From Rhytidiadelphus loreus (lineage: Eukaryota; Streptophyta; Bryopsida; Hypnales; Hylocomiaceae): 64,000 bases of DNA. Position numbers and translations under genes: made by a program. The stretch spans positions 74,753,348 to 74,817,347 of the forward strand of contig OX344764.1 in the NCBI GenBank assembly GCA_947034895.1, in the 5' to 3' direction. Below the pieces are notes generated by a model. The model made no database searches. It was not told the DNA's origin and saw only the letters and a program-made list of their open reading frames with translations. This document shows positions 13,649 to 57,538 of this stretch, in pieces (position 1 is the stretch's first letter; every line of letters begins with the position of its first letter).

Positions 13649-13681
13649 ATGGATTGAGTAACATTTTTGACAGTGTGAAAG

Positions 13682-34498: not shown

Positions 34499-34506
34499 AG
34501 TATGAG
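34499..34506. repeat. Left 8-bp target-site duplication of the hAT element
   Basis: AGTATGAG, exactly repeated at 57539-57546. Eight base pairs is the diagnostic hAT length. Confidence 0.92.
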
Positions 34507-34640
34507 CAGGGTTGTTCGCTGCGACACCGCGACACCGCGACAGACAGACGTCGCGCGACGTCTAGAAGAGCCCGCGCGACGTCACGAAAAGTCAAATTTA
34601 CCTTTGACTTTACAGGAAATTACCCCCCTCCAGGTGGATG
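34507..34640. repeat. Left terminus of the hAT element
   Basis: TIR CAGGGTTG followed by GCGACACCGCGACACCGCGAC and ACGTCGCGCGACGTC palindromic blocks. The right terminus (57410-57538) has matching GACGTC/GTCGCG blocks and CAAGGTTG. Confidence 0.8.
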
Positions 34641-34674
34641 CCACATGGCATCCACTTGGCAAACTGGAGGGCGC

Positions 34675-35062
34675 GTACGGGTAGGAGAGTGCGGGTAGGG
34701 TCGACTGCGGGTCGACGAGGGCGACTGCGGGTGGGCGACTGCGGGTCGACGAGGGCGACTGCGGGTGGGCGACTGCGGGTCGACGAGGGCGACTGCGGGT
34801 GGGCGACTGCGGATTTCTGAGGAAGACCGCGGGTGGGCGACTACGGGTTTGGCAGGGAGACCGCGGGTTCAGGAAGTGTTCTTGGGTGGGCGACCGCGGG
34901 TGCGCAAAAGGTACCTAGACCCGGTGGTGGACCCGAAGTCGCCCAATTTGGACCCGCTGTCGCTCTCTCGAGACCCGCTGTCGCCCACGTCGGACCCGCA
35001 GTCGCTCTACCCAGACCCGCAGTCGCTGGATACGCAGTTGCCCTATCCGTACTCGCCCCCCT
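34675..35062. repeat. GCGACTGCGGGT motif cluster A
   Basis: At least a dozen copies. Up to about 34900 they read GGGCGACTGCGGGT, then they flip to ACCCGCAGTCGC/ACCCGCTGTCGCCC, forming an inverted array. It ends 180 bp before the start codon of the RING-type cargo gene. Confidence 0.9.
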
Positions 35063-35242
35063 AGACCGAAGTCACTCGCCCTATATAGCCAGTAGCCCAT
35101 CATCATGCTATCACCTTCATTTTCCATTGAGGCTTTCTGTCTTGCAACCTTTGTTGGTTGCATGCGTGACCCTTTTGGATAATATATATACTATTTTTTG
35201 CTATCATTTGGTTCTTAGAATTTTGCGACGTCCGCAAATCTC

Positions 35243-37756
35243 ATGGCAACTGGAGGTAGCAGTGATGGGTCCCTTCCGGGTTTTTCCACTGTACGCACTC
35301 CTGGTGCAATTAAGAAGGCTGCCAAAGACAAGACTAGAAAAAGGAGGGGTAACATTCACAAGAAGCGATGGCATGTGTTGAACAATGATAACCACCTAGC
35401 TTTCAAAGAGTGGAACGAGGAGCCAAAGCCTTGGAGTATGCAGGTGTGCGAAGACTACATTGAATGGTGTCACATCGGGAAGTTCTTTCCGGCATGGCGC
35501 CATCATCACAACCGACACAATAACAAGGCAAATTTGAAGTATTGTGAAAATCCAGCTTTCATACGAAGGTGTTTAGAATTGTGGCAGGTCCTCTACAAAA
35601 CCCCTTTTGTAGATAGGAATGAGGCCCCTTTGTTCATTGCTAAAGGTGCCTATGCTGAGGTTGCCTTGAACAAACAAGTTGACTGGACCACGATCAAAGA
35701 AAGTACCTACGTGGAGCGTCCAGAAGTTGGAATAATTCCAAGAGGGGTTCTCAAATTTCCGGAGGGTGGACTTGGGCCTTTTCGAAGTGATCCACAAAAC
35801 AAAGAAACTCAAGAGGTGGACACGGAAGAATCAGAAGAGGATAATGATTCAGATGGTACACGGATTCCTAAGCTTGTACGAGTGAAGGAACAGATTATCA
35901 CCCCCGTCCAAGTTCCAGTTCCAGTTCTAGTTCCAGTTCCAGATCCAAATGTTCAAGCCGCTTCATCATCGCGGGGAAAGAAGATGAAACATCCTGCCAA
36001 AGTGCGACGGTCCACCACGAAAATTAGATTGGCATCAACCTCAACCACAATTGCGACTCCAATCTTGCCACCACAAGACGCCAGCAACGTCTTCGACTTT
36101 GCTTTAAGTGACGACTCACCCGTATGTGCCACAAGTCACATTCCCATTCCACAGTCTGAATCTGATGTTGTTCACAATGCGATGACATTGGCAAAGGCTC
36201 TCGACCTCTTGAAGACCAAGGATGCACAAATTGCAACCTTAGAAGGTGATGTGAAGAAATGGCGGTCTACATGTGAACAAAAAAATGCTCTCATTTCTCA
36301 ACAATCCAAAGAATTACAAGGCCTTCGAGAAAAAGAGCGTCAGACTTTCACATTGTCGGACATGGACAAAACCTTTGTTGAGCAGGATCCACATCACTTG
36401 GACAAGCTTGTTGGGGACCTCACCAGCGATGTCATTCACCTTTCTCCCCCTGCCAAGCGTACGAAGCGTTCTTCAATTCTTCCAATGGCACCGCTTCCGT
36501 TCGTCTCAAGAGAATCTAGCAATCCGCACGTTGATGGTTTGCAAGGGACTCAGGATTCACTTTCGTTTCCTGCCATTCCACATCTACAATCATCAAAGGA
36601 ACTTGATTTGGCTGAGGAAAATAGAATGCTTCGAGAGAAGTTGGCAGTGTTGGCAGCGACATACTATCATTGGAAGGTCGCGTGCATTCTCTCCGTGGAT
36701 CGATCTCAACAAGTTGCGAAAGAGCTAGACAAAGTTTCGAAGAACTTTGTAGCAAATGCCCCTAAACGAGAGAATGGATTGACATCATGGGCATTGATGG
36801 AGGACATGTTTCCGGATAACATGTCCATGCTTGACGTGGCGGAAAAAAATGTCATAGACTGGGCACAAAATGGTTGGGACCATGGAAATCAGATGTCTAG
36901 TCACTTCAACAAAAAAGACCAAAGTCTATTGTGGCCAAAGCCAGCTCATTTCGTCTTGGATCATACCAAATGCCCCATATGTCTAGAACAATTTGGGCCA
37001 GAAGGAGGATGGGCACTTGGATCATGTACACATGTGTACCATCCTCAGTGTCTCATCACTCAATGTCTGATTAGACGACGATGTGTGATTTGTGCAGCAC
37101 CATTCCATGATCGCTTGTATACCATGTTCAACTTGATGACTTACATGCCACCTTCTTGGGAACACAATAGAGACACGACGGCAGAGCCACGATTTTGGGG
37201 ACGAGACTTGCTTTGGAGTTGGCGAGAAGGCCTACATGATCAAGAAATGGGAGCTGCTGCTTCACAATTAAATTGGGAAACGGACCCGCGTGAAATTCTA
37301 AGAGTGGCATTCAACCTTATGGGAAAAGGAGCTCACAATGCAGGGAAGAGGGCGTTTTTTTTTCAATGCCTTGGTGGATATTTTGATAAGACATCCCAAA
37401 CCTTTAAGTGGGGTGCTCATTGGGAAGGACACCATTGGAATTTTGAAGGTGAACAAGGGGCTAATCGTGATGAAAATGCCACTCCAGAAGACTTGAATAG
37501 TATGGCTTACCTCGACTCAACATACGGGCCTTATTATCAAAGCCAAGCACTCGATTATCTATTGGAGTTACACTCTCCGCAAACTAAAAGGACACTTGAA
37601 GCTCTCAAGAACTCCAATGTCTTGGAATCTATTTTAGAAGCAGATGGACCTGCTTCAAGGACTCGTGCTAAGAAGAAACTCGTTGTTGGAGAGTCCAATG
37701 ATTACGAACAAGGTGCAACGAGTGGTTCTCAGAACAATCCAATGGACTTGAACTAA
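35243..37756 (+). CDS. hAT cargo protein 1: WCHI-domain protein with RING-H2 finger
   Basis: 837 residues, intact, ATG at 35243. Residues about 25-155 hold the domain shared with two other cargo genes (KPWSMQVCEDYIEWCHIGKF, FPAWRHHHNRHNNKANLKYC, FIRRCLELWQVLY, VDWTTIKE). An acidic segment, a Pro/Val-rich linker and basic patches follow, then a coiled coil (about 315-360). At about 576-620 is a RING-H2 finger with CPIC, CTHVYHPQC and CVIC (C3H2C3 spacing), typical of E3 ubiquitin ligases. The C-terminal 200 residues (GRDLLWSWREGL, AHWEGHHWNFEGE) are unrecognised. A TATA-like CTATATAG lies at about 35081, with motif cluster A upstream. A plausible role is acting on host or element proteins through ubiquitin; this is inference. 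It could also bind DNA through the N-terminal domain. Confidence 0.85.
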   Translation: MATGGSSDGSLPGFSTVRTPGAIKKAAKDKTRKRRGNIHKKRWHVLNNDNHLAFKEWNEEPKPWSMQVCEDYIEWCHIGKFFPAWRHHHNRHNNKANLKYCENPAFIRRCLELWQVLYKTPFVDRNEAPLFIAKGAYAEVALNKQVDWTTIKESTYVERPEVGIIPRGVLKFPEGGLGPFRSDPQNKETQEVDTEESEEDNDSDGTRIPKLVRVKEQIITPVQVPVPVLVPVPDPNVQAASSSRGKKMKHPAKVRRSTTKIRLASTSTTIATPILPPQDASNVFDFALSDDSPVCATSHIPIPQSESDVVHNAMTLAKALDLLKTKDAQIATLEGDVKKWRSTCEQKNALISQQSKELQGLREKERQTFTLSDMDKTFVEQDPHHLDKLVGDLTSDVIHLSPPAKRTKRSSILPMAPLPFVSRESSNPHVDGLQGTQDSLSFPAIPHLQSSKELDLAEENRMLREKLAVLAATYYHWKVACILSVDRSQQVAKELDKVSKNFVANAPKRENGLTSWALMEDMFPDNMSMLDVAEKNVIDWAQNGWDHGNQMSSHFNKKDQSLLWPKPAHFVLDHTKCPICLEQFGPEGGWALGSCTHVYHPQCLITQCLIRRRCVICAAPFHDRLYTMFNLMTYMPPSWEHNRDTTAEPRFWGRDLLWSWREGLHDQEMGAAASQLNWETDPREILRVAFNLMGKGAHNAGKRAFFFQCLGGYFDKTSQTFKWGAHWEGHHWNFEGEQGANRDENATPEDLNSMAYLDSTYGPYYQSQALDYLLELHSPQTKRTLEALKNSNVLESILEADGPASRTRAKKKLVVGESNDYEQGATSGSQNNPMDLN

Positions 37757-39428
37757 ATATTTCTATGAGATACTTACTTCAACGGTGGTTCTAGTTAATC
37801 GTAGTAGTATACAAGATGTAAGGCCCATAGTATAAGGGCCATAGTATATCCATACTCGCACAATGTAGTACTCTAGCAAAAGTTAGGGTTAAGATGTTGG
37901 CTTCTAAAACTATACCGCCTTGGCTGTGTATTGTACTACTATGCTTATGGACAACAACCTTCTATTGCTTTGGTTTTGAAGGTTTGGGCATACTTATACA
38001 TTTGTAGCCTAAAATGTAATTGGTGAAATGCAAATACATTTGTTGTAATGCCTCACACAATGATTCCATACACGGTCCCCACAAAATTGCTATCTTCAAA
38101 TCTTTTAATGAATTTTTTCCTTTTGGATTTTTTTCTCATACAACATGTTTTTGTTTACATGGAAAAATTTGATTCATTCCATTCAGATTTTTTATGAGAA
38201 AGTTATGGACCATTTTGTTTGGCGGGCAACTTGAGTCTACAGCTTCTTCTTTTAAAAGTTGCTTGTAGGATTTGTTTCTCCAGGCAATTTCTACAATCTA
38301 AAAAAAAATTAGGTCCGGTCACATAGTTAACTTCACTTGATAGCACACTCTCACCATTTTCATTTCATTTTAGAGATATTCATTATTTAAATTTTACAAC
38401 TACATCTTACCTACTTCTACTCAACAATTTCTTAAAGTATCCAAAATTGTTTTTGAAAATTGTTTTTTTCCCACACATAACCATAGGATCTTACACCTTA
38501 CTAGTATGAGAATGTGTGGAAAAAATTTCAGAATTTTTCATCTTACAGATTGCAAGATATCCGCATTTAGAGTGAAAAAAACAATTTTTTCAGCACATTG
38601 CTGGACTACATTATTTGACTTTTAACATTTTTCACTTTAATTTCTTGCACTACAGAGTTTTGAGCTTTAAGCAAATATAGTGGAGAATTGAGTTGAGAGT
38701 CTAAATAAAAAAAAGGTTTTCAAAAAAACTTAATTTTCATTCTTAAAAAAATTGTAGAATAGAAGTACATATGAGATTGAATGAAAATCTATTTTCTTTC
38801 TAAGATAGAATTAAAATGCACTAATCCCCACAGTCAAATTGTTGTTGCAAGCAAACTAAACCATGTCAAACTTCTTTTCTTGAACAATTGCCAAAATTGC
38901 GTTCCTAAATTAATCTTACAAGGTATTTTTCCCACCAAAAGCTCTAATTGCCCAATAAACAAGATTGTCCATAACTTTCTCATAAAATATCCAAATGAAA
39001 TGAAAAAAAGCTTTCCGGATAGACAAAATTATAATCTATGAGGGAAAAAAACTTAGAAAAATAAATTCAAATGCTTGTCACATTTTTTTGCTGCCCATTC
39101 TCCCCTGCTTTGGAGTTTGGACTATATGGGCATAACTTTTGTTCCCGGGCACCGATTGGAAAAAAGGTTATATTACCACAAAGGTAATCGTTTTTTCTAT
39201 CTTCAAATAAAGTTTCAAAAATTCAGTCCCAAATTTCAGCCCGTAGGTACCATCTCTGACATCCATTCTTGCAAAGACACCAAATTCATAGCCCTCGTAT
39301 TCAAAATATAATAAAAACATATGTACATTTCAAAAACAAAGGTGTGAATTTCTTTATTCCACAAAACCTTTGGAAAATCAAAAATTGGAAGGCCAAATTG
39401 TTTTTTTCTACCACACTAGATCCAACCA
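37757..39428. other. hAT interior between two convergent genes, no gene
   Basis: AT-rich DNA after the RING-type gene and before the convergent second cargo gene. It holds an inverted repeat (see fold-back entry); otherwise nothing is recognised. Confidence 0.5.
38110..39060. repeat. Fold-back element with dispersed-repeat core
   Basis: The arms at about 38110-38240 and 38945-39060 are inverted copies, best seen as CATAACTTTCTCATAAA near 38975 and its complement near 38200. The interior 38350-38830 matches 17990-18460. It fits an AT-rich fold-back or MITE-like element inserted in the hAT. Confidence 0.5.
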
Positions 39429-40919
39429 CTAAGCATTTTTTTCACTATTCACAAAGTCACTTTCTTTGGGCTCCGGTCTCATTCTTTGAAGTTCCACACG
39501 GGTGGCACCTATGCCTTCATAGGCCCACTTGCGCCATTCCTTAAAATAAAGGATGTGGCCCTCCAAGTCCAATATGCCCTCGTGCAACAACTCTTGTTTT
39601 TTCTCCAGTAGCTTCACCAAATAAAAAAGCGTTGCTCTTTCTTCTGTATTGCTACCATAATCCGGAGCTAAAGCCAAGATGCCCTCTTTTTTGGCTTCTT
39701 TTAAGGCATCATCATAATATTCCATCTCTAGCTCACGTATTTGAAGATTCAAGCTTCTCCTTTCGCTTTGATGGGACCATTTATCACGTTGCAAAAGATC
39801 AAGTTTATTTTGAAGCACCGCTAAATCATCGGAAATGTGTGCTCGCCCGTCTTCGATCTTCTTGAAATAATTTACTCTACTTTTGTTTAACTTAGAGTAA
39901 ATCTTCTCATTTTCAGCAATGGCGTTTTCAGTCGCCTCTAACTCCTTCTTCAACCCATCCACAACAGTTGGATTCACTGGAAGATGTTGTACCTTCTCTT
40001 TCAAATTCATAAGATCCGCTACTGTTGAAGTCAAAGCTGCTCGTGCACTTTCGATCTTAGTGCCCAACATCTCCAAATTGTCTTCCGAATCATTGTCACT
40101 GCTTCCGCTAGACCCAATGTCTGCACCAAAACGGTCCACATTGATCGGTACATGAACATCTAAGCTTTGTTTTTTAATCTTGGACAATGATTGCGGCTCC
40201 TCCAGCTTCCTCTTTCCCTTCTTGTCAACTTGAACGTCTTCAGCCGCCTCTTGTTTTTCTTTGCCAATGTCTTCGTCGTCACTCTCAAAAGAATATCCAT
40301 CGTATTCGTGAGTGTGCTCATCTGAGCTAGAAGTTGAAGACCATTGAACTTGGTCATCACCAACAGCCAACTTGCCAGGCTTTGCCTCTAAAAGCTTCTG
40401 ATTTGCTTGAAGAAGTCCTTCTTCATCCAGCACTATCGGTCTGTCCGGGTGGTCACCGATAGGAAGCTCCTTCAAGGTTGTCCAATCTACCTTTTTCTTC
40501 AATTGAACTTCAACGTACACCATTTGCACAAGATAGAAAGAGAAGTTGTCATTTCGATAAGGCTGGGACTCCAAATAGAGTTGCTGCCATACCTCCAAAC
40601 ACCTTCGCTGGAAGACAACACTCTTGCAGTAATCCAAATTTGCCTTATTAGACTTCACGTGCAAAGGGTGTCGCCAAAACGGGAACAACTTGTTGATGTG
40701 GCACCAATCCACATATTTGTTTACAGTTTCATATGTCCAAGGCTCTGGTTCTACTTCCCATCCCAAAAAGGCCTTCATCTTTGGATGCAACAAGATGGGT
40801 ACACACTTCTTGCGAGGTTTGCCGCTCCTTTTACGATCCTTGTCACGAACCGCCTTTTTGTTGAGCCGAAGTCGGTATCTTGACATACCGTGTGGCGGTT
40901 GAGAGTCCTCGCCCTCCAT
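39429..40919 (-). CDS. hAT cargo protein 2: WCHI-domain coiled-coil protein
   Basis: 496 residues, intact; the ATG at 40919 is preferred over an upstream GTG. The basic N-terminus (RLNKKAVRDKDRKRSGKPRKK) leads into the shared domain (PEPWTYETVNKYVDWCHINK, LFPFWRHPLHVKSNKANLDYC, FQRRCLEVWQQLY, VDWTTLKE). An acidic Ser/Asp/Glu stretch (about 205-235) and a long coiled coil to the C-terminus (ELEATENAIAENEKIYSKLN, LQNKLDLLQRD) follow. No enzyme motif is present. Upstream lie an inverted telo-box pair (40961-40986), the shared ~70-bp module (41121-41188) and motif cluster B. The coiled coil suggests self-association or pairing with the other two WCHI proteins; function unknown. Confidence 0.85.
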   Translation of the reverse strand: MEGEDSQPPHGMSRYRLRLNKKAVRDKDRKRSGKPRKKCVPILLHPKMKAFLGWEVEPEPWTYETVNKYVDWCHINKLFPFWRHPLHVKSNKANLDYCKSVVFQRRCLEVWQQLYLESQPYRNDNFSFYLVQMVYVEVQLKKKVDWTTLKELPIGDHPDRPIVLDEEGLLQANQKLLEAKPGKLAVGDDQVQWSSTSSSDEHTHEYDGYSFESDDEDIGKEKQEAAEDVQVDKKGKRKLEEPQSLSKIKKQSLDVHVPINVDRFGADIGSSGSSDNDSEDNLEMLGTKIESARAALTSTVADLMNLKEKVQHLPVNPTVVDGLKKELEATENAIAENEKIYSKLNKSRVNYFKKIEDGRAHISDDLAVLQNKLDLLQRDKWSHQSERRSLNLQIRELEMEYYDDALKEAKKEGILALAPDYGSNTEERATLFYLVKLLEKKQELLHEGILDLEGHILYFKEWRKWAYEGIGATRVELQRMRPEPKESDFVNSEKNA

Positions 40920-41200
40920 AACGATCACTTCGTCTCAAAAGTAGCCAACTAAGTACTATGCGGTTTAGGGTTGCAAGCCTAAACCGTAGGTGTAAAAAAT
41001 GCTAAACGTAATCCTATCACATTTAACATTTACAAAAATACAATGTTCTCGTGAAACACCCTATGTCATCCAAGCGTGAATAAAATGAGCTGTGCAAAGG
41101 GACAAAAATCCCCCCCCACAACTCAAACCCCTAGCTTCTGTGCACGCATTCAGCCACATCAGCAGGTGAAAGACAGTGCGCAGAATGCCAGGGAAAATTT
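40920..41200 (-). promoter_or_regulatory. Shared cargo-gene promoter module (cargo gene 2)
   Basis: The module, read on the minus strand, contains GCGCACTGTCTTTCACCT, GTGGCTGAATGCGTGC and GCTAGGGGTTTGAGTT. Near-identical blocks precede the kinase-like gene and cargo gene 3, and a weaker one lies at 47.3 kb. Closer to the ATG is CGGTTTAGG...CCTAAACCG, two telo-box-like arms with a 9-bp perfect inverted repeat. Confidence 0.7.
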
Positions 41201-41204
41201 AATG

Positions 41205-41695
41205 GCGACTGCGGGTGGAGGAGAACATTGATGTACCCGAGGTCGCCCCTGGGGCGCGTGCGGGTCCTGAAGTGGGGCGAGTGCGGGTCAGCCCAGTGCT
41301 CCAGGGCGACCGCGGGTCCGGAAGTGGGGCGACTACGGGTCAGCCCAGTGCTCCAGGGCGACCGCGGGTCCGGAAGTGGGGCGACTGCGGGTCAGCGCAA
41401 GTGCTCCAGGGCGACCACGGGTCCTAGAGTGGGGCGACTACGGGTCTGGACAGGTGCTCCAACGCAACCGCGGGTCGAAGGAGCCCGGGCGAGTGGACGA
41501 CCGCAGGTCCAGGGCGACTTCGGGTCCAAGGCGACTTCGGGTCCAGGGCGACTGCGGGTCCTAGGCGACCGCGGGTCCAGGACGACCACGGGTCCACTTT
41601 GCGAAGGCGACCGCGGGTCCTGGGCGACAGCGGGTCCTGGACTCCTGGGCGACAACGGGTCCTGGGCGACCTCGAGTCCCAGGTGACCGCGGGTC
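41205..41695. repeat. GCGACTGCGGGT motif cluster B
   Basis: More than 20 copies of GGGCGACTGCGGGTCC and variants (GACCGCGGGT, GACTACGGGT, GACTTCGGGT), all in one orientation. Includes a tandem block of about 57 bp around 41285-41400. Confidence 0.9.
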
Positions 41696-43452
41696 CATTT
41701 ATTAATGCATGGACTTTTCTTTTCTTTCTTAGTACATGTTTATAGATTGTGATATTTTTTTCCATTTTTCCTTGCGCTGGGAAAGTGGCGATACTAAATG
41801 TTACGGAGGGGCTCCAAGCTTCAACATTCATCCACGTACTGGATAGAAAATGTGATACTAAGTATCTAAAATTCTATTTTCATTTACATTGTGGCGATTT
41901 CATCGAAGACTTTTCTAGAAGTTGAAGTTTTTCTAGCAATTTCATCCAAAATTTTCCTAAAAAATTCCTATAGCTTATAGCTAGCCTAAATTTTTTGTTG
42001 CTTTTGAGCACCAAATCTCAAGGGAAAAAAAAAGGATTGTGAGCTCAATCCCATTTGTGTTGCAAAATTTATGGAATACTAGTTTATACTTTATACTATA
42101 TTTGGGGAGCCATTAGGGTTGAGGTCGGTTGTGGTACAAATGGATTCCTTATTGATTATCTGAACAAAAGTTAAATCTTTGCAATTGTTTTAGAAGAAGT
42201 TCTTGTTAACTAATTTTTTTCTTATTAATTAATTTCATTGTTAATTCTTAATTTTATTGTAAATGACTTATTTCATTGTTAATGACTAATTTTATTGTTA
42301 ATAACTAATTCAATTGTTAATAACCAATGTTATGATTATTAACCATTGCAATTGTAACAATAATATCTTTGTAATTGTTTTGACATGAGATGTTCATTAT
42401 GTATTTTTGGATGTAGACTCAAATTACATACTATGTTACACACACTAATTTTGGTAAATTACATGCCTAATAACTAAATTTCTTGTACGGACACAAATCT
42501 ATAAATGAAAGTCATTGTTGGACTTATATCATACTCCAACCATCTATGAAAGAATGTGTGTTTTTATCAATTTGGATGACATATACCAAAAAAAAGAATA
42601 TGGTAGGAAAACATTATGCTACTAGGAATAATATATATGGTAAAACCAGATTTACATTTATTATTGAATTCATCCAAGTTTTCTCAAATTGCGTGTTTAA
42701 TAAATGACAAAGATTATGGCTACATATCTTTTTTGCAATATCCACTCTTGTTTCATTGTCTCAAAAAAAAAAAGGGGTCGCAAGAAGTCAATGAACTTCC
42801 TTTTTCCAAATAAAATAAATAGGAAGAGAGCGAAAAAGGTTAAATAAATAAATAAAAACATCTCTCATCTATTTTGAAATAGGTAAAGTACGAATAAAAA
42901 GGAAAAGTCTAAAAAAGTCTAAAATGTATGTTTCCTATATTTGAATTAGAATAAATAGGAAAAAAAAACCAACTTGCTTTTATTTTTGGAAATAGAAAAA
43001 ATAATAAGAGAATGTAAATGATGTATGACTTACATTTTTTTAGGGATTGAAAAAACAACTATTTGAATTCAATGACCATGAAAGTAAAACTCCTTTCAAG
43101 TGCATACTAGCACATTTTATTCAAGAAATAATACAAGTCTTCAACATCAATTACCAACTAATTTATTTTCATTTTCTTATTTTCCTTGCGTCCATTATAT
43201 ACTACGGAATCAAAAAGGACCAAGAACATTTGAATTCAAAAGTTGTTATATTTTGCATAACAATGTGTAAAAGGCCATATTCAATATATACAATTTGACA
43301 AATAGCCCATTGAGTAATTGTTTTTCTAAAGACAAGGCGCGTAGCATAAAATTCCTTCATATATTATAGGAAAATATTACAAAGTAAGCAACACATAATT
43401 GGCCACCAAGCTCATTGCTTGCACCACTAAACTCTTGCTCTAGACTATCCTA
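41696..43452. other. hAT interior, AT-rich, no gene
   Basis: No supported gene. A loose TTATTGTTAATGACTAATT tandem repeat lies at about 42215-42340. Confidence 0.5.
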
Positions 43453-45045
43453 TTACAAAGGTGAATCTCGGAACACCAATTCGGAGGGCATCATGGACCA
43501 TGGTGGAGACATAAGGGAATTTGTGATCTCTATACACGTTGGTCTCTTCTTTGGGTCAGTGTTCACGAGTTCACGCAACTTCATTCCAAAGTACATTGAT
43601 CCCTCGCGGTTCTTGAACAAATCCTTGTCTCAATCGTCCATATCACCAATTCTCATCCATTCGGTCAACTTCCCAATAGAATACGAGTCTGACTGTTGCG
43701 TATATTTATACCGTTGTTGCATGATCGATATGCTTGTATTGGAATTTGGAGGTCCATATGCATAAAACAACTCCGGGGCAACCCACCAACGACCTTCTCG
43801 GTATTGATCCCTCTCGGCCTCAGATGGCTTTCCAAAATGTGAAGGCGCGTTTTCGTCAAAACGACTTGATATTCCAAAATCACAAATTCCAATGTTGATT
43901 ATGTCGTTTGAATAATCCGGAAAATGCAACATGATGTTCATGGGAGACAAGTCATTGTGTAGCACGCGGCACTTGTGCATGAGATTTGTCACATATACTA
44001 AAGCCCATGCCAACTTTGCCTTGTGCCTTCGGAAGAGACCAAGTTCTTTTTGTTTCTCTTCAGGAAGTCTTGTGGCTTTTTGCATTTCATGCCAGTCAAT
44101 GGTTGGTGATACAGAACGATCTAAATGCCTCAACTCATTCAAATGGCCCCCATTCCACCACAAAGTGTACGCTTCATTCGTGCGAGAATGAATGGCAAAA
44201 AACTTAATGATGCCAGGGTGGTTCAAGGGGCATGCAAGGGCCTCCATGGATCGTTGCGCTCTCCCCTCGCGCGGGTTTATTGCCTTGGATACTTTCTCAG
44301 CAAAAGCGATGTAGCTTGGAATTGTATCCATTCCTTCAATGCGTACCTTATGCACTTTTGCATACCCCCCTTCATGTTCAAAAGCACTAAGGGGCACCAC
44401 TTTCGCCGTATCGGGGATCCACGTGATACACAATCCACCATCTCGTGCAAATGCTGCCTGCACCGCTGCATTTTTCCACTTAAAACCCCTTGCCGAGCCT
44501 CTTGCCAATTTCTTCACTGCGCTGGACCACCACTCCATTTTTTGGCGGAATGCCTTGATGTCTTCTGATTCCTCTACTATCGGAAGAAACGGTCGATGTT
44601 CCTCCATCAATTTCTTGGTATTGACCATCACCGCTTTCAATGTGTTATCAAGCCATTCAAATAGTCTCGAAGAATATGTCAAGTCAATGTCTGCGAAATC
44701 ATCGGATCCCTTTAGCTTGGTTAAAATCCGTGCTTGTAAATCGTTTGGCAAGGCCACACTACCAGTTGTAGGACACCTCAAATAGCTTGCCTCCAAGAAT
44801 TGTACACTTTTCCCTGCGTACCACTGGAGACACGTTTCGTATGCATATCGGGTATAACTCGGGGGAGGATAGTTGGAGTCCTTGTCATGTGCTGACTTCT
44901 GCTTCTTGCCCTTCCGTCGCTCTTGACTCCCTCCTTCTTCGTTTTCATTTACAGCTATCGGAACCTCGAAAAAAATTGGATCATCGAGGTCCAGATCCCA
45001 TAAAGACTTTCTCTTTGTAGTGTTGCCTTCATGTGGAAAAGCCAT
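43453..45045 (-). pseudogene. hAT cargo: protein-kinase-like protein with one nonsense codon
   Basis: ATG at 45045. About 470 codons lead to a TGA at 43630-43632; the same frame then stays open for 58 more codons to a TAA at 43453, and that tail contains the expected kinase C-lobe motif (NTDPKKRP). Kinase landmarks in order: a glycine-loop-like EGGYAKVHKV, AFAEK in place of VAIK, NHPGIIKF, LHNDLSPMNIML (HRDLKPxN with HND-LS), ICDFGIS, VAPEL and SDSYSIGKL. Catalytic Asp, Asn and DFG Asp are kept, so an active or nucleotide-binding kinase is plausible for the undamaged form. The N-terminal 200 residues are basic then unrecognised. The shared promoter module (45117-45180) and motif cluster C lie upstream. 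The premature stop removes the last C-lobe helices. Confidence 0.75.
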
Positions 45046-45185: not shown

Positions 45186-45640
45186 AAGTAAGGTGAGAAT
45201 CGGAAGTGGGGCTAACGCTTAAGTACCCGAAGTCGCCTTAGGGCGCGTGCGTTTGGGTGACTGCGGGTCGGGAGGGGGCAATTGCGGGTCTGAAGTGGAG
45301 TGACTGCGGGTCTGAGGAGGGGCGACTACAGGTCTGATGACAGCGGGAATGGGCGACTGCGTGTTTTTGGAGCGCTGAAATGGGCGACTGCGGATCGTGG
45401 GCGACCGCGGGTACCAACTAAACCATCCCGAAACTTGCACACGCGGTCGCCCACAAAGAAGTCTCTTCGACCCGCAGTCGCCCCCTACGCGCAGTCGCCC
45501 CACTGGAGATTGAGTTTGCATTTTCCAAAAATTTAGTCTCCCTCCTTGACCCGTAGTCGCCTCCTACGCGCAGTCGCCCTGATTCAAATGTGTTTTTTGC
45601 TTCGTCGATGACCCGCGGTCGCCCCTGACCCGAGGTCGCC
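45186..45640. repeat. GCGACTGCGGGT motif cluster C
   Basis: Forward copies (GGTGACTGCGGGTC) change to reverse copies (GACCCGCAGTCGCCC, ACGCGCAGTCGCCC) at about 45430, again an inverted array next to a cargo-gene promoter. Confidence 0.9.
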
Positions 45641-46500: not shown

Positions 46501-46514
46501 TTGTAAAACATGCC

Positions 46515-47250
46515 CATACCCGCAGTCGCCCTAGAACCCCAGGTCTGATTTTGGAAGTGATCTGGGGACCCGCAGTTGCCCTCTACGCGTAGTCGCCCTG
46601 ATGGAAGGGGGGAGATTGCATTTTCGAAATTTCTGGTGTCTCCCACCTTGACCCGCAGTCGCCCCCTACGCGCAGTCGCCCTGATGGAAGGGGGGAGATT
46701 GCATTTTCGAAATTTCTGGTGTCTCCCACCTTGACCCGCAGTCGCCCCCTACACGCAGTCGCCCTGATGGAAGGGGGGAGATTGCATTTTCGAAATTTCT
46801 GGTGTCTCCCACCTTGACCCGCAGTCGCCCCCTACGCGCAGTCGCCTTGATTGAAGGGGGGACATTGCATTTTGAAATAGTTAGGTTGCTCCCACCATGA
46901 CCCGCAGTCGCCCCCTACGCGCAGTCGCCCTAATAGAGGGCGGAAAAGTATTTGGTGTCTCCCTCCCCTTCCATCAAGGCGACTGCGCGTAGGGGGCGAC
47001 TGCGGGTCAAGGAGTTTGCATTTTCTCCTTGACCCGCAGTCGCCCCCTATGCGCAGTTGCCCTGATGGAGGGGGGATTTTGAAATGTGTTTCCCCCTCGA
47101 GGACCCGAGGTCGCCCTGACTCGCGGTCGCCCTTGAAAGACGCGAGGGATCCTTGGACCGGACCCGCGGTTGCCCCACGCACAGTCGCCCCATGCGCTGT
47201 CGCCCTAGTATCCGTGTTAGGGTTAGCGCATGCGCCCCTGGCGACCACGG
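46515..47250. repeat. GCGACTGCGGGT motif cluster D with 82-bp tandem units
   Basis: Mostly reverse copies (ACCCGCAGTCGCCC, ACGCGCAGTCGCCC). Four units of about 82 bp (from about 46569, 46651, 46733 and 46816) also contain GATGGAAGGGGGGAGATTGC. A short forward pair lies at 46978-47010. Confidence 0.9.
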
Positions 47251-47289
47251 GTATTTCATGGGCTGTTCCAGCCTGTGGTCCATAATTTT

Positions 47290-48768: not shown

Positions 48769-50034
48769 TAGAAACATTGTTGTGGTGCATCAAACGGCAG
48801 CCTTGTACCATGGCATAAGACCCTATTTTGATTTTTGAGTTGGGATCATAAAAAGAAATAAGTTATTTATGAAGATAATAGTACTAAAGTCATGCTAGAC
48901 ATGTGAAATAGCAATGTGCTTGACAAAGAACTTCATTTTACATTTCTATACTATGATTTTGCTAAACAATGCATGGATTGTTTATCTCAGATGGATGATC
49001 ATATTTTGCTAAACAGTCCATGGTATATGAATGTTTAATTGATTAGTGCCCAATACTTTAATGGTTTACATATGTGACCCCTCCCAAAAAATATATATGC
49101 CCATAAATGTGACCCCCCCAATAAAATATATACCCATAAATGTTGTGGCTTGTTATTCTTGGTTCACAAGTTTGAAATCCCCAAATATTGAAAATGTACA
49201 AATGTATGCCCTTGATTTAATCCCTTTGTTTGTAAATATGATGGCTACACTTTTAATTAATATGAAACAAGTTTTATTGTTTGGATACCTATGAATGTAC
49301 AGATAAATAAAATTTGAACAAAACCATGAAATCAGCTGGGAAATAGCTATGACAATTAATTGTGACAATTAGTTCCCAACTACACCTTCACGGTGCTTGA
49401 TGAAGCACATGATGAAAGTTATATGGGAGCTCATGTTGTCACACCCAATCCTTATGAGATATTTGAACAACCATCTTACTACACCTATCCTATGCATTGT
49501 ATAATTGATTATATTGAGTTTTGTTCTCTCACGCAATTTATAATGTGTCAATCACACTTGACCATAAATGAATAAAAGGTATTTATCCCTCAATTCCCAA
49601 ACCCCTTCTTTTGGAGCTCTCCGAAAGTGGTCTACATTGATCAAAAATCCCACATTCTTCATAGTTGGATCTTGTTTTACAATCATGGATTCACCATACA
49701 AATTCAAACTAAACATAATAGAGATTGCATTGGAAAATAAAACGCAACCATGTGAATCATGGATGGTAAATTTCTTATGTTTGATTATTTTCTTATTGAA
49801 ATTGCAGAAGTGATGTTAGGGTGGGAATCCTCTTTTTGCATGTCAAATCTAATAAGTTGCAACAATAATTAATAAAATGGCTAAAGATGCATAACCCAAA
49901 TTTTTAAATAAAAGATGAAAAGGTGCAATACATTTTTATGAAGTGCATTGGTAACTAAAATTTATGTCCACAATTTTGTGTAAGAGAACTTCAAAGTGAA
50001 AGTCTTAGAGGTTCAGAAATTCAAAATCCCGCCC
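48769..50034. other. hAT interior, AT-rich, no gene
   Basis: No supported gene. A short direct repeat of about 38 bp (ATGTGACCCC...ATATATGCCCATAA type) lies at 49071-49145. Confidence 0.5.
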
Positions 50035-50348
50035 TGTACCCGCAGTCGCCCACCCGCGGTCGCCCCACTGTAGGGGTCCAGAAATTACTCTGTGGTGCCC
50101 CACACGCGGTCGCCCATCCCCAGTAGCCCCAGACCCGTAGTCGCCCTACCCGCAGTCGCGCAGGACCCCAGTACTTCTATAGCCATTGACCCGCGGTCGC
50201 CCATCTCCAGTAGCCCCAGACCCGCAGTCGCCCTACCCGTAGTCGCCTTCGCAGTCGGCCCCTTAGACCCGCAATCGCCCTACCCGCGGTCGCTCTCAGA
50301 CCTGCACGCGCCCCTTCCTGCACTCGCCCTAGGGCGATTGCGGGTTAA
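50035..50348. repeat. GCGACTGCGGGT motif cluster E
   Basis: Reverse copies (ACCCGCAGTCGCCC, ACCCGCGGTCGCCC, ACCCGTAGTCGCC), then one forward copy (GGGCGATTGCGGGTT) at the inner edge, 230 bp before cargo gene 3. Confidence 0.9.
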
Positions 50349-50384
50349 TTAGCTGTCTCCCCACCCGACTTCGCCACTTTCCCT

Positions 50385-50573
50385 TCTTGCTGCGTACTGC
50401 CTTTCACCTACTTTACAGTGGCTGATTGCGTGCCCGGGAGCTTGGGTTTTGAGTTTCACTTACATGTGGCTCATGTTCTTGATTTTACTCCATCACTCAC
50501 TAATCGCTAGATAATACTTTGCGGTTTAGGGTTAAGTTTAGATTCCTTGCCCCAAATCTCAAGAGCATCTCCA
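50385..50573 (+). promoter_or_regulatory. Shared cargo-gene promoter module (cargo gene 3)
   Basis: GCGTACTGCCTTTCACCTAC, GTGGCTGATTGCGTGCCC and GCTTGGGTTTTGAGTT at 50390-50460, then GCGGTTTAGGGTTAAG (telo-box) at 50521-50536, 38 bp before the ATG. Confidence 0.7.
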
Positions 50574-52181
50574 ATGGCGGACCACAAGAAGAAGACCAAG
50601 GCAAAAGGAGCCATGCACCTTAGGCAACGACGCATCCTTTTGGACCCAGCGTGTGTGGCCTACCGAGGTTGGGATCGAATTACGGGCCACTGGACCGCCA
50701 AGACTTGTAAGTCCTTCGTGGGGTGGTGCCACATCGACAAGTTATTCCCCTATCATCGGCACTACACAAATCGGTGCAACAATACGGCCAATTTGCATCC
50801 ATGCCGTAGTGATGCATTTGTGCAACGTTGTATCGAAATTTATCGATACTTGTATGGCACATATTCAGTGCCCAGGAGCGAAGTCCCGTATTTCATATGT
50901 GCAATGGTGTATACGGAACTCATTTTGTTTCGAAGCGTGGATTGGAGTTCAATCAAGGGAGTGAAGCATGCTCGCCTTCCACCCACAGAAGACATTCCAA
51001 GGGCGGCTCTATCTACCAATCCACGTGAAGGGCTAAGCCAGAAGAAAAACTTGAAGGAGGGAGTGCCCGATGAGCAGTTTCATTAGACGTCATCTGATTC
51101 ATCTTCGGGAGAGGAAGACAACCTTGGTGAAGACCCTCCAATGCAGCCCCAAAACATGGCGATGGTGGCTTCTACTTCACAAAATTTACCTCCCCCGAGA
51201 ATGGAAGAAGAGGGTGAACCAGCTAGGCAACCACAAAATCTTGATATTTTGCCTCTTGCTATGGTGAATCCGATTACAGTCCCTCGCACTGAAGAAGACG
51301 AAGTTTTGCAGTATGTGCTTGCATGCATGCAAGAAGCAGAAGATGATGTTTTTTGGACAGAGATGGAAACAGAAGAAGATGTGAAGCCTTCTTTGTTCCA
51401 ATTGGATTGTGTTGATGACATGTACCGAAGTGAGGAATTTGTTGAAGATGGAACTGTCCCTGACACACTAATGTTGGACACCAAAGTTGTTTACAAAGCT
51501 CAACTCAAGAAGCTTCTAAATGAGTTGGATGAAAAGCATCTAGAATGTGAGAAGCTTCGCAATCAAGAAACGCAAACTTTGAGTGGAGATATTGTGAATA
51601 GCTTACGTGCTGAACTTGAAAGTCGGCAAGTTCTTTTGTCAACGCAAATAACAAAGATTTTAGACTTGGAAGCATTTTACCTTAGATTCTCTTCTCGGCA
51701 TGCTGGAGGATCTAGTTCTTCTAGCAATGAGTTTGCGAAATCACGGCTTGCCAAAATTATGGAAGCATGCAAGCTGGAGGAAGATCAGATAGACTTGGAG
51801 AAGCGAGGGGTGGAAGAAGCACGATCAAGATTAAATTCCTTGAAAGCATTAAAGGACAAAGCCCCCCTTGACCATGTTGTAGAAATGTGTGGTTGGAAAG
51901 ACGTGGCTACTAAACAAGCATTGTCTCTTACGGAAGTAGTTGACTTGAAAAAGAAGCTTGGAGTTTCTTTGTCATTGGATCCAAAATTGGAAGAACATCG
52001 GGATGCACTGAAGGCGCTTTTGAAGTTCCAAAAATCATACAAACAATTTTGGTTGGAAAAGAAGTTGGGGAAGGATGACCGATACCTTAGAAATTTGCAG
52101 TTGGAAGGTAGGAAAGTCTTGTATGAGATGGAACGTGAGGCTCATGACCGCAAAGAAAAGGCCAAAATGGATGTTGAATGA
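50574..52181 (+). pseudogene. hAT cargo protein 3: WCHI-domain coiled-coil protein with one nonsense codon
   Basis: ATG at 50574. The basic start (DHKKKTKAKG) is followed by the shared domain at about 25-150 (GHWTAKTCKSFVGWCHIDKL, FPYHRHYTNRCNNTANLHPC, FVQRCIEIYRYLY, VDWSSIKG). A TAG at 51084-51086 interrupts the frame, which continues without change to a TGA at 52181: an acidic Ser/Glu stretch (SSDSSSGEEDNLGEDPP), more acidic residues, then a coiled-coil-rich C-terminal half (LKKLLNELDEKHLECEKLRN). The layout equals cargo protein 2, domain then acidic linker then coiled coil. The stop sits where cargo protein 2 has a Ser-rich linker, so the lost residue was probably Gln (CAG to TAG). About 535 codons in all. 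Function unknown. Confidence 0.75.
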
Positions 52182-52655
52182 TTTTCATTTTTAGCACATT
52201 TTTGAGGACTATGTATATTCCATCTTATGTATATATAAAAGGATATTATCCATTTTGAACATTCCAATGCAAGCACATTGAATTCTATGTAGTTCCTTGA
52301 CAAGAGTACATAAATATAGATATGAATTTTTGGTTATTTATGTTTGCAATGTTGTGAATACTTGAATATTCTAGGAATTTTGGCAGGAAAATGACCTTGG
52401 GAGTTCGGACTTTCGGAATTAAAAGAGAATTAAAAAAAAAAGGAAAATTAAAAACTTGCCGGATTGGAAAAGAACTTGTTATTGAAGTTCAGAGCAATTG
52501 TCACGGCTAGGGTGAATTGACCTACTCATTGCCACTCCAGGGCAAACACTAGAATTTTTTATTTTCAAGGCTTATTTTTTTAGTGGAAATTCTGAATTCA
52601 TAGTTTCAATTATAGGCCCCAAATTACCCCAGGGGATGCAAGAATTATCTAAACA
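52182..52655. other. hAT interior with a MITE-like end, no gene
   Basis: A sequence at about 52505-52550 (GCTAGGGTGAATTGACCTAC, then TCATTGCC) matches the arm of the element at 9576-9833, so a fragment of that repeat family may lie here. Otherwise AT-rich. Confidence 0.35.
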
Positions 52656-52659
52656 AATG

Positions 52660-52930
52660 GCAGTCGCCCGTTCCTGGACCCGCAGTCGCCTTTTTCTGGA
52701 CCCGCAGTCGCCCATTACTGGACCCGCAGTCGCCTGTTTCTGGACCCGCAGTCGCCCATTACTGGACCCGTGGCGCCCACTTCTGGACCCGCAGTCGCCC
52801 ACTCCTGGACCCGCAGTTGCCCACTTCTGGACCCGCTGTCGCCCAATCTTGGACCCGCAGTCGCCCATCACCTGACTGATTTCAGGTTTTTGGACCCGCA
52901 TTCTCTCATGGGGCGACCGCGGGTCCAAGG
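52660..52930. repeat. GCGACTGCGGGT motif cluster F
   Basis: About 12 copies of CTGGACCCGCAGTCGCCC at a spacing of 20-21 bp, then one forward copy (GGGCGACCGCGGGTCC) at 52912. It ends about 250 bp before the transposase ATG. Confidence 0.9.
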
Positions 52931-53175
52931 AGTTTTCTTGTATGAAGTTCTAGGGGTACCCCTTGTTTTATCACCTTGGCTCCGTTGATAAAACTCTTGT
53001 CTTGGACCTTCGAAAGAGGCTTCATGCGGACGTTTAACTTCTTCGGAGGGCAACAACCGTGTTTAGAAGGGTTTACAAGACCACTCTAAGCGGGTTGCTT
53101 TGTCATTACATCTTCCATAGTATTAGTGTGATTATTGTAGTCATTTTCTTTGAAGACCCAGTGTTGATCTACTAC

Positions 53176-56100
53176 ATGGCTGGACAAGGTGTTGGGAGGG
53201 GGGGGATCATGAATGATACGCGGAGGTCCACAAAGGATTGGGACCCTTGGCTAGTACTGTGTACCCCAATTGATAATTCCCCCCATGCTCGAAAATGCGT
53301 GTTTTGTGGGTGGAGCAAAGCATTTGTACGAAAGAGAGCATTGATTCACTTTGGCTATGGCGGCTCGACTACATCGGAGCATTGTAAGGAGATCCCTAGA
53401 ATTGTACGAGAAAAGTTTCGGACTGGCGAGGGGCAAGTTCCAAGGTCCATGAGTTACGAAGAGATGTATGATGCATCGACTAGATATGATGCACCAGTTA
53501 ATGTTGCAGAGTCTATTGTCGCACCTACGTTGGATGTCGAAGAAGAAGGGTCTCTCAATCCCTTTGAATCAAATGCAAGACCAAATCCTACGCATGATTC
53601 AGTAGATTCTATTGGAACAACGCTTGAGAGAAGGAGGAACATGCCATCTGTTTCTCGGCAAAGAAGTATGGATGAATCATTACAGACGGGCCGCAGACAA
53701 GAGTTGGATAGGTTGTGGGCTTCTTTCTTTTACGAGGCGAACATTTCATTTAATGTTGTGCGCCACCCGGCCTTCGTGAATGCTGTTAAACAAACTGCAG
53801 CAGCTGAATTCGTGTACCAACCGCCACCGTATAATGCGATTCACACGAAAATGATAGATGTTAAGAAGGCATCGGTTGAAGCCATGGTCTCGGAGCGGAC
53901 GAGGGTTTCAATAAGTCAGTATGGAACGACAATCTGTTCAGATGGTTGGTCCAATACTAATTCGCGGCCGTTACTAAATATGATGTTGGTGTGTCCCGCC
54001 GGGGATGTCTTTTTGGGATCAGTGGATAGTACTGGGGAAAAGAAGGATATATCTTACACGACTGAGACGATGGCACGATACATTGAGGAAGTTGGGCCTA
54101 CCAACGTTGTGCAATTGTGTACGGACAATGCTGTAGTCATGACGGGGGCGATGGCAAGGTTGGAAGAAAGGTACCCTCACATTTATAGGCAGGGTTGTGC
54201 GGCACACATTTTGGACTTACTCTTAGAAGACTGGGGAAAGGATCAGAGAATAAAGGAGTTGGTAAAAAAGGCTTCATCAATTGTGAAGTTCATCAAGAAA
54301 TACCAACATACTTTGGCGTTGTTTCGGAGATTTTCACCAAACAAAGTGTTGAGACTTCCAAGCAAAACACGTTTTGCCACAAATTTCTTGATGATTGATC
54401 GTTTGGTAGACTGCAAGCAAGCAGTGCACAACGTGACACTGGATGAGACATACATGACGTTCGAGTTGAGTTTGCAAAACCGTAGAAATGGACATTTCAT
54501 TATGGGCAAGGCCAAACTTGCAAGGCAAGATATCCGTTCAGAAGAGTTCTAGGTTCAGTGCGACAATTTCCTCCATATGGTAGAGCCCGTGCTGCTTTGT
54601 CTTCGTCATTTTGATGGAAAAGTCCCGGCAATGCCGAAAGCTTTAGTAATGATGACAGCCTTGAAGGAGCACATTTATTCTCTCAAGAATGCTCCATTTT
54701 TCCTTGATCCAGTGGTGGCAACACGATACGAGAAACAATTTGATGCTCGCTGGAAGTTGATGATTACTGACCTACACTATGCGGGGGCACTACTAAATCC
54801 ATACTTGAGTGACGTGGAGGCTATTCATAACAATGGCTACGCGAAGGGAGCTTTGAATCGAGTCATACGAAAACTGAGCGTACCATTGAACGTGTCAGTG
54901 GTGGAAGCAATGCAGGAGCTAACTCAATTTGAAGAGAAGACAGGTGCATTTGATCCTTTACATGAGGCTCCCGATATCATTGAATGTCAATTATTGCCTC
55001 ATCAATGGTGGAATCGTGTGGGGGGCAATGCTCCTCCAAAAATTGCAAAGCAAATTCTCGGTTTGACGTGCTCTGCATCTTCGTGTGAAAGGAATTGGAG
55101 CATGTATTCCTTTGTGCACAATAAAGTGCGAAACCGCTTGGCCACGACAAAGGCAGAGACATTGGTGTATATCTACGCGAACAACAAACTTGAACGTCAA
55201 AAACGTGGACACAACCCAACCATTTTTTACGACCAGATGCTTGCAGATGGAGACGATGAGGACGAGCGTGATGGGCCTTTGTCTTCAGGGGAAGAAGACG
55301 ACGTTGTTCCAGATTTTATGAGAGAACGCGAGAACCGCAGGGATGAAGAGGATCGGTTGCGCAACAATCCTTGGAATGCAATGGTTAGGCCGCCACATAG
55401 TCCTCCACGACCAATATACGGGAATACATTTGATTTTAGTGACGATGGGTATGTTTCTCCGGAAAATTCACTTGTACGCAGTCCACCGCAGAACGTCGTG
55501 CACAATATGGATGCAATTTCGCCGGCACATGCATCACTGAGGAGGGAAAGCACCCCCAACAACAACGACGAAGGCGTACCTATTCCCATGGCACCCGTAG
55601 AGGAAGAAGCTAGATCTCCAATATCAACTAGTTCGCCTCCAAATATGGCCCGCAATTTAAGAAGCAGTGCACAAGTTCCAATGAAAAGCGAACATGAAGA
55701 AGAGGCCATCGAAGTCAATGAAGTTGTACACGAGGGAATACCAAATCCCGTTGTATTGAACGCATCTACCCTCGGAACAACTGTTACTACAGATGATGAT
55801 GATGATGTGCCATTGGCATATGTTATGAATCGAAATTGGAATGTGCCGTTGAATCCAGAGACGACTACAAATGTGGCAACAGTGAGGAGGTCTATCCCAA
55901 CCCTTCCAACAAGGCCATCGGTGCGTGGAGGTGCTCTACGGACGATTGATGAAGAGGTTCACGGCTCAGCTCCACAACCCACTCAACCTTCATCCGTGTC
56001 TGACCCTAGCGAATCATCATTAGGAATCCAGGGGCGCAACAGTAGAGGCCAGAAAAGGCGTATTAGGAGGGTTGATGAGAGGGGACCTCGAAATCCTAAA

Positions 56101-56475
56101 CGACCCACTCAAATTGTCCAACGGTGTACCATTGGAGCGGGATGTTCCACCCAGAATGTTGGACAATCAAGTAGAGGAGGGCGACACCCTGCATCCAACA
56201 TGGATGGAACTACGGATGCGTTGAGGCTCACGAAACGACTTGTGCAAACTGAAGGGTTTAGTGGTGTAGATACAAAAGTTCGAAATCTGAACTCAGAGGT
56301 AGAGCGTGAGGTACAAATCGAAGTAGTAACAAGGGAAGATGATGAAATCGAAAGCTCGGGCGACAACAAGAGCAACGAAGAGTCTTACGAAGATACAGTC
56401 ATACAGACCCTAATGCTGATGAGGTGCCGAGTGATTCCACATTCACGCCTGGTGACTAGAGTACTAGAGAAGTAG
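53176..56475 (+). pseudogene. hAT transposase with one nonsense codon
   Basis: ATG chosen at 53176 (MAGQGVGRGG); an upstream ATG-like extension is hydrophobic and unlikely. The frame has one TAG at 54550-54552 and is otherwise open for about 1,100 codons. Residues about 15-75 form a BED-like zinc finger (CVFCGW...HF..GGSTTSEHC). The middle holds the DUF659/RNase H-type core (SQYGTTICSDGWSNTNSRPL, VVQLCTDNAVVM, GCAAHILDLLLEDW), with Asp residues placed as in hAT catalytic centres. The dimerisation region follows the stop (CSASSCERNWS, HNKVRNRLATTKAETLVYIY). An unusually long disordered, acidic and Pro/Ser-rich tail of about 400 residues ends the protein. It would cut and rejoin the element ends, giving 8-bp duplications as seen. 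The stop probably makes this copy non-autonomous. Confidence 0.85.
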
Positions 56476-56989
56476 ACAATAATTATAGTTATAGTTATAG
56501 TTATAGTTATAATTATAGTTATAAGGTTTTAGCTTATATGTTAGGTAGCAAATCTTTGTAGTTCAAGCTTTGAGCCTTCATCCTGATGTGTAAGGATTTT
56601 GTAATGCTTCATCAAGCATATGAGCATATTAGAGTGAGGGACAGATTACCGGTTTTAAAATATATGTTGAATTCTAATTGGTAGGCAGTTAGGTGATGAC
56701 TGCAACGAGGTTATAAAAGTGCAATGCAAGTATGGCTACATTTGAAGTCCGCCTCAAAGCAATATCGATGACTAATTAATATAATCGTTGTTGACATTAT
56801 TATTGTGGCCTTATACTGGGTGAATTTTTGGGATTAGAGAAGTTTGTCCAATTTACATTTCATGGGCTCTATTATTTGCACTTGTAAATTGTAAACCCCA
56901 ATATAACGTAGCACCTAATTCTGCGCTTATAAAACACCTATGTGACGTGTTACTTCAAAGACTAAATATGCCAAACTGAAATCCTAAAT
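56476..56989. repeat. TAGTTA microsatellite and transposase 3' flank
   Basis: (TATAGT)n, about seven units, at 56480-56525 directly behind the transposase stop codon. The rest to 56989 is AT-rich 3' flank without a gene. Confidence 0.8.
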
Positions 56990-57365
56990 TGAACCTGCGG
57001 TCGCCCTGGAACACGCGGTCGCTGTCTGCTGCTCCGACCCGCAGTCGCCCTGTAACCCGCAGTCGCCCCTACCTGTCGGACCCGCGGTCGCCCTCAGTAC
57101 CCGAAGCCGCGGTCGCCCCTTCACCCGAAGTTGCTCTAAAGCCCCTGACCCGCAATCGCCCACTCACCCGCAATCGCCTTCAAGCCTAAACCTGCAGTCG
57201 CCTCTATTTTTTCCACCCGCGGTCGCCCCTTCACCCGAAGTTGCCCTAGCGCCCCAGACCCGCAGTCGCCCCTTCACCCGTAGTCGCCTCAATTTTTCCA
57301 CCCGAGGTCACCCAAGGCAGACCTGCACGCGCCCACACCCGCAGTCGCCCATGCTGGCTGTCCAC
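56990..57365. repeat. GCGACTGCGGGT motif cluster G (right subterminal)
   Basis: About 18 reverse copies (ACCCGCAGTCGCCC, ACCCGCGGTCGCCC, ACCCGAAGTTGCCC). It faces cluster A at the opposite end of the element in inverted orientation, as subterminal transposase-binding arrays would. Confidence 0.9.
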
Positions 57366-57538
57366 GTCAGTTCCGAAGCCCTGCCACGTAGGCAAAATCT
57401 ATTTACCATGGGGTAAAATTTTTTACCCCTCCGCGACGCGATGTCAAGTAAACTCGACACTTTGTGACACGCGACACGCGACGTCAGACGTCATACACGA
57501 CGCCTAAACCCAAAAATATGTCAGACAAGACAACCTTG
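57366..57538. repeat. Right terminus of the hAT element
   Basis: GACACGCGACACGCGACGTC and GTCATACACGACGCC blocks, then CAACCTTG, the inverted counterpart of CAGGGTTG with one mismatch. Confidence 0.8.

Follow-up and report, generated by a model that had tools for sequence, protein, structure and literature searches.

What is the 23-kb stretch of the moss genome that encodes a hAT transposase together with several other genes: one mobile unit with genes of its own, a transposon with passengers, or a chance assembly of repeats? The window, that is the whole stretch of 64,000 nucleotides that we analyzed (C4:74753348-74817347), belongs to an assembly of 407 Mb in 489 contigs, and coordinates beyond it keep the window's numbering. 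Positions 34507-57538 form a hAT element of 23,032 bp, directly outside whose ends lie exact 8-bp duplications (AGTATGAG):

34499-34506, no strand: left target-site duplication AGTATGAG, 8 bp
34507-34526, plus strand: left terminus CAGGGTTGTTCGCTGCGACA, 13 of 20 bases equal to the reversed right terminus
57519-57538, minus strand: right terminus, reversed CAAGGTTGTCTTGTCTGACA, a terminus sequence with matches elsewhere in the genome
57539-57546, no strand: right target-site duplication AGTATGAG, 8 bp

The terminal inverted repeats of hAT elements start with the consensus CA(G/A)GG. The ends of the window element (CAGGGTTG on the left and, reversed, CAAGGTTG on the right) are short imperfect inverted repeats of the hAT kind, and the boundaries given in the preliminary description hold to the base. 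In a control covering 262 kb around and including the window, we found 19 left-type and 21 right-type sites. When these were paired at spacings of 0.3-45 kb, only two pairs agreed in 7 or 8 of the 8 flanking bases: the window element and a derivative of 6,613 bp.

The element holds five recognizable genes, which we refer to as g1, g2, kin, g3 and tp:

35243-37756, plus strand: g1, WCHI domain and RING-type zinc finger, 837 amino acids (from frame, Pfam and pairwise comparison)
39429-40919, minus strand: g2, WCHI domain and long predicted helices, 496 amino acids (from frame and pairwise comparison)
43630-45045, minus strand: kin, protein kinase, 471 amino acids in the window copy (from Pfam)
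50574-52181, plus strand: g3, WCHI domain and C-terminal region, with an in-frame stop at 51084-51086
53176-56475, plus strand: tp, hAT transposase with DUF659, Dimer_Tnp_hAT and a long C-terminal extension (from Pfam)

These genes bear out most of what had been claimed from the reading frames: an internal hAT transposase, three related WCHI-domain genes and a kinase-like gene. In tp, Pfam recognizes both DUF659 (E 3e-35) and Dimer_Tnp_hAT (E 4e-5; 23.7 bits against a cut-off of 21.4, and 31-32 bits in the related elements 3 and 4 described below), so that a transposase with the C-terminal dimerization domain accompanies the 8-bp duplication, as in other hATs. The N-terminal WCHI domain is common to g1, g2 and g3, with pairwise identities of 36-44% over 109-179 residues. 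When the cargo proteins were searched with the Pfam HMMs, the kinase lay above the cut-off (Pkinase, E 6e-11), the RING finger of g1 fell below it in the window copy (24.5 vs 27 bits), and g2 and g3 matched no family above cut-off. The corresponding WCHI-RING frame of element 4 exceeds the RING cut-off (28.8 vs 27.3 bits), and the g1 product is a probable RING E3 ligase. Presumed catalytic residues (a lysine, HND...N and D(F/W)G) are invariant in the kinases of four elements. The WCHI domain of g1, g2 and g3 matches no Pfam family above cut-off, and its structural model (pLDDT 72.6) finds no counterpart among solved or viral folds; DNA binding by the WCHI proteins is therefore a guess. In addition to the kinase and the WCHI genes, a possible fifth gene had been mentioned; unless the transposase was meant, it found no support: between 45.6 and 50.4 kb no stop-to-stop frame exceeds 158 amino acids, and the one of that length sits in motif repeats.

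The window copy itself is decaying, judging by its frames, since tp and g3 each contain one in-frame stop and the kinase is 59 residues short. The stop in tp (54550-54552) is common to the window copy and a nearby second copy (copy 2). The kinase has 530 amino acids in all nine other copies read, which indicates that the version in the window has been shortened.

Similar elements are dispersed through the genome. Our searches scored the best-scoring places of many candidates, the window's own place being counted each time. Among the matches scored, kin occupies at least 90 places (96-100% alike; 65 of 90 without stops in the 471-amino-acid part), g2 at least 86 (97-100%; 64 of 86 stop-free), g1 at least 54 (97-100%; 24 of 54) and tp at least 42 (95-100%; 17 of 42). 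At a threshold of 98%, the left and right 194 bp each have at least 40 places, counting that of the window, out of 613 and 650 candidates, respectively. Copies of the window type thus number in the dozens and are about 95-98% alike. We grouped the listed places by element strand and a distance of less than 25 kb between neighbors, which gave 200 groups, 100 of them with two or more parts. Among the matches listed, not one of these 100 breaks the order left end-g1-g2-kinase-transposase-right end, and three groups, the window included, contain all four searched genes; the copies with equal gene order that had been sought are therefore present. Pairs on opposite element strands within 10 kb are absent among the matches listed, right ends excluded. 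All ten left-end loci (the window's own included) run on into g1. Two further pairs of ends span 22,389 bp (the C2 pair, with the exact duplication ATTGACAC and tp inside) and 32,140 bp (the C1 pair, known from its ends alone, with flanks alike in 7 of 8 bases, GTTCTGTC/GTTTTGTC). Copy 2 lies 48-91 kb to the left of the window's start; its flanking octamers differ, and no matching duplication was found there.

A nest of separate elements, or an assembly artefact resembling one unit, might be suspected from the repeat-rich neighborhood and from inner motif clusters that resemble further ends, but is extremely improbable: copy 2 is collinear with the window element except for a single 20-kb gap and matches it at about 96-97% in its three long blocks, the distance between g2 and kin is 3.8-4.2 kb in 37 of 39 pairs among the matches listed, and the ten left-end loci have ten different flanking octamers. 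Across ten kinase copies (45 pairs), mean pairwise dS is 0.022 and dN 0.0065, pointing to a young family. Between the window copy and copy 2, dN/dS is 0.31 for g1 and 0.76 for tp, the latter suggesting that recent selection on tp has been weak in these two copies.

Other repeated frames occur in the surroundings. To the left of the window, three sets of long frames look alike by eye (-108482 to -101785, -73822 to -66480 and -39752 to -33820), one of them inside the 20-kb gap of copy 2; they perhaps represent another multi-gene transposon, to judge from their frames, and one frame of such a set, with WLNIVFDLNGVLC, presumably resembles a HAD/NIF phosphatase. Further frames, again alike by eye, recur at 58633-61831, 90768-93868 and 108680-115321, and one recurring frame of this group carries MPSCNLAE(T/S)VHNKWLQQSG. 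A DYW-type PPR gene, of a family that marks its genome as that of a land plant, lies in a single open frame of 932 amino acids at 13679-16474 (DYW_deaminase, E 1.7e-39).

A more distant relative, element 3, allows the gene content to be compared over greater divergence. It starts at 127238 (C4:74880585), about 70 kb from the window element. Its left flank, ATTGGGGT, predicts an 18-base right junction, GACAACCYTG+ATTGGGGT, which has a single match in the 407 Mb (C4:74906584-74906601; 0.02 expected, and none for the backwards control). Element 3 is therefore 26,009 bp long, with the exact duplication ATTGGGGT. Its genes g1, g2, kin, g3 and tp follow one another as in the window element, with kin in reversed orientation. 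Over aligned codons, identity to the window element is 62% for g1, 45% for g2 and 52% for kin; g3 (53% and 33%) and tp (64% and 54%) were each compared in two parts. The dN/dS values are 0.20 for g1, 0.27 for g2, 0.18 for kin, 0.23 and 0.37 for g3, and 0.27 for the second part of tp, the one for which the ratio was computable; all are rough, because synonymous sites are near saturation. In element 3, one stop lies in the stretch used for the g1 comparison and another in that used for the second part of tp.

Could the additional genes nevertheless be captured host genes that travel as passengers, as in Pack-hAT elements, and play no role in the element's life cycle? Kinases and RING fingers are common plant domains. 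Pack-hAT elements do exist (PMC8903248), and the fungal ToxhAT carries cargo (PMC9594970). However, the same five genes stand in the same order in elements that are only 33-64% alike, with dN/dS of about 0.2-0.4, which marks them as conserved parts and not passengers. Many copies also keep open frames (among the matches scored, the counts for kin, g2 and g1 given above), and Pack-TYPE elements are described in the accessible text as non-autonomous (PMC8903248). We regard the passenger explanation as very unlikely. The comparison instead supports g1, g2, kin and g3 as accessory genes conserved under purifying selection, for which 'cargo' is too weak a word.

With the shared gene order of the copies, the C2 pair and the divergent 26,009-bp element, the proposal of one hAT element with multi-gene content of its own stands, and the sequence comparisons confirm the stretch in the window as one copy of a large hAT transposon family. 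A copy without the cargo between the same ends, which would have spoken against that proposal, does exist: the derivative (6,613 bp; -20943 to -14331, C4:74732404-74739016) has ends that are 84% and 90% like those of the window element, an exact 8-bp duplication (read in the derivative's orientation, TGCGCAAG), four motif sites and none of the five genes. We read it as a Ds-like partner or derivative, which would carry no weight against gene conservation in the large elements. Because it retains its ends and an exact duplication without the five genes, it suggests that such ends can be mobilized in trans. Of the six elements or pairs of ends considered, four have an exact 8-bp duplication (the window element, the C2 pair, element 3 and the derivative), the C1 pair has one that agrees in 7 of 8 bases, and copy 2 has none.

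Two still more remote relatives are located between the window element and element 3. Element 4 (about 115.8-127.2 kb, L019-L020) has a tp frame at 116.2-118.7 kb, a kinase at 120.1-121.6 kb and a WCHI-RING frame at 125.5-127.3 kb. Element 5 (about 66.5-106 kb, L010 and L015-L018) has a WCHI frame at 68.3-69.4 kb, a kinase at 70.4-71.9 kb, a WCHI-RING frame at 96.2-98.9 kb and tp from 100.5 kb. Their matched stretches are 27-51% alike and their kinases score below the Pfam cut-off. Neither has a recognizable g2 or g3, and their termini were not found in the neighborhood of the window. Judged from these frames, they are perhaps members of a wider group of kinase-bearing hATs.

A further feature shared by the window element and element 3 is a short motif, CCCGNNGTCGCC. 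The window element has 60 sites and element 3, as far as it was read (to 152653), has 61, against 0.035 and 0.04 expected per element (200 local shuffles each). In both elements it is clustered at the left end and 5' of all five genes, and in the window element also at the right end:

34720-34985, minus strand: subterminal cluster, also upstream of g1; 9 CCCGNNGTCGCC sites, 7 of them on the minus strand
41204-41660, minus strand: cluster upstream of g2; 15 sites
45226-45640, plus strand: cluster upstream of kin; 6 sites
46519-47251, plus strand: cluster without an adjacent recognizable gene; 9 sites
50039-50247, plus strand: cluster upstream of g3; 6 sites
52679-52923, plus strand: cluster upstream of tp; 8 sites
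57038-57349, plus strand: right-end subterminal cluster; 7 sites, in the orientation opposite to most left-end sites

Each gene in each element has 3-15 sites upstream. Sites within 1 kb upstream of a gene make up 44 of 60 in the window element and 39 of 61 in element 3, where some gene starts are estimates, while such DNA accounts for about 20-22% of the length. Most sites ahead of g2, g3 and tp are oriented like the gene, most of those ahead of g1 are not, and for kin the direction differs between the two elements. The same arrangement recurs in other copies. At each of ten kinase loci, counting that of the window, 5-12 sites precede the gene within 1.5 kb, and the gene itself and the DNA behind it have none; each of the ten left-end loci has 4-10 sites within the first 1.7 kb of the element and not a single one within 1.5 kb beyond its end. 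The neighboring DNA, about 140 kb of it, contains four sites, all within the 6,613-bp derivative, in line with the earlier claim that the motif clusters stop at the element ends. The stretches of elements 4 and 5 contain no CCCGNNGTCGCC site. Element 3 has three gene-less clusters of its own (136227-136323, 142020-142398 and 143367-143633, with 4, 11 and 7 sites); these and the one at 46519-47251 are possibly promoters of a lost gene or of a non-coding RNA, going by their position.

The main form of the motif is specific to the lineage, as far as the two lineages compared can tell. In the window element, the NN of the motif reads CA in 28 of 60 sites, CG in 12 and AA in 4; in element 3, it reads AA in 30 of 61, CG in 16 and CA in 3.

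That each gene stands behind its own motif array suggests that the element controls its own expression. We consider it probable that the window element belongs to a young, high-copy family of giant hATs whose autonomous form encodes five proteins and runs a regulon through a motif-binding protein. Such an autonomous form would produce the transposase, the kinase and three WCHI proteins, among which that of g1 is probably a RING E3 ligase. We infer that an element-encoded protein, most likely at least one of the WCHI proteins and possibly the transposase, binds the motif arrays. The bound arrays would keep the element's promoters open against host silencing, placing its five genes in a regulon of their own. 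Speculatively, the RING protein and the kinase may assist by eliminating or altering host proteins of silencing or the cell cycle, and the accessory genes and the motif would evolve together with the element lineage.

The arrays might instead be binding sites for the transposase only, like the subterminal repeats of other hATs. In that case the transposase would regulate every promoter, and the kinase, RING and WCHI proteins would act elsewhere, for example in repair, nuclear entry or the timing of excision. In the window element the left and right terminal arrays are mostly opposed, as subterminal repeats recognized by a transposase would be, and the derivative, with both ends, its four sites and an exact duplication, makes the ends seem sufficient in trans. 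Yet in both elements arrays also stand upstream of every gene, the inner ones included, where excision alone would not need them. We judge this alternative unlikely, though deserving of serious weight, and favor a regulon run by a dedicated motif-binding protein.

How does this arrangement compare with known systems? The hAT superfamily comprises Ac/Ds, Hermes, Tam3 and their kin, and typical autonomous members have one gene. The window element shares with them the transposase domains, the 8-bp duplications, short imperfect ends, a repeated subterminal motif and a small derivative with the same ends. Unlike the usual hATs, the window element and element 3 extend over 23-26 kb and contain four conserved accessory genes; Ac, by comparison, measures 4.6 kb (PMC3260210). 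The claim that no hAT of such composition had been described holds in part. In the literature on large or cargo-carrying hATs and on bryophyte genomes, with Repbase and most subscription papers outside its scope, we found no plant element of like make. A large hAT with cargo is known, however: ToxhAT of cereal-pathogenic fungi, a 14-kb hAT that carries an effector gene (PMC9594970), so that large size with cargo is not new by itself. ToxhAT resembles the window element in being a large hAT with non-transposase coding content, but the accessible part of that report mentions neither a gene set conserved between divergent elements nor motif arrays (PMC9594970). Pack-TYPE elements, described in the accessible text as non-autonomous with captured fragments (PMC8903248), likewise are DNA transposons with extra coding sequence; the elements described here, by contrast, contain full conserved genes beside a transposase gene of their own, which is stop-free in 17 of 42 copies among the matches scored.

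Terminons, Mavericks, Teratorn and Starships are giant eukaryotic transposons, large mobile units with accessory genes, and the VANDAL elements of Arabidopsis belong to the Mutator-like superfamily by their transposase. The enzymes of those giant transposons differ from that of the window element. The word hAT was not found in the accessible main text of the review PMC6431247. The closest likeness that we draw is to the VANDAL/VANC system: VANC21 binds arrays of a nine-base motif that lie in one orientation and at high density in the non-coding parts of its own VANDAL21 (PMC5735166, PMC10398659), and the accessible text reports that motif types differ between VANDAL subfamilies (PMC5735166). 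In the window element and element 3 there are likewise several genes per element and a short motif densely arrayed outside the coding parts, in forms that differ between relatives. Unlike VANDAL elements, they encode a hAT transposase, a kinase and a RING protein, and binding to their motif is putative. The VANC domains DUF1985 and DUF287 were not found in seven frames of the window element (Pfam, E up to 1). Because the VANDAL proteins are others, we treat this as a likeness, by analogy, and not as membership. A more far-reaching proposal, possible but tentative, is that the WCHI proteins constitute a new family of factors that act at specific sequences, against silencing or as activators. 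Together with the kinase and the RING E3 ligase they would form a self-contained chromatin-opening pathway of hATs, independent of VANC and with a co-evolving motif.

Cut-and-paste hATs are usually viewed as small, single-gene transposons. If our reading is true, hATs too can become complex self-regulating units, with four selected accessory genes, a private motif before every gene and a copy number in the dozens. As the main motif form, with some 30 copies in each, is not the same in the two relatives, it would then be possible to test directly whether a factor and its sites have evolved together.
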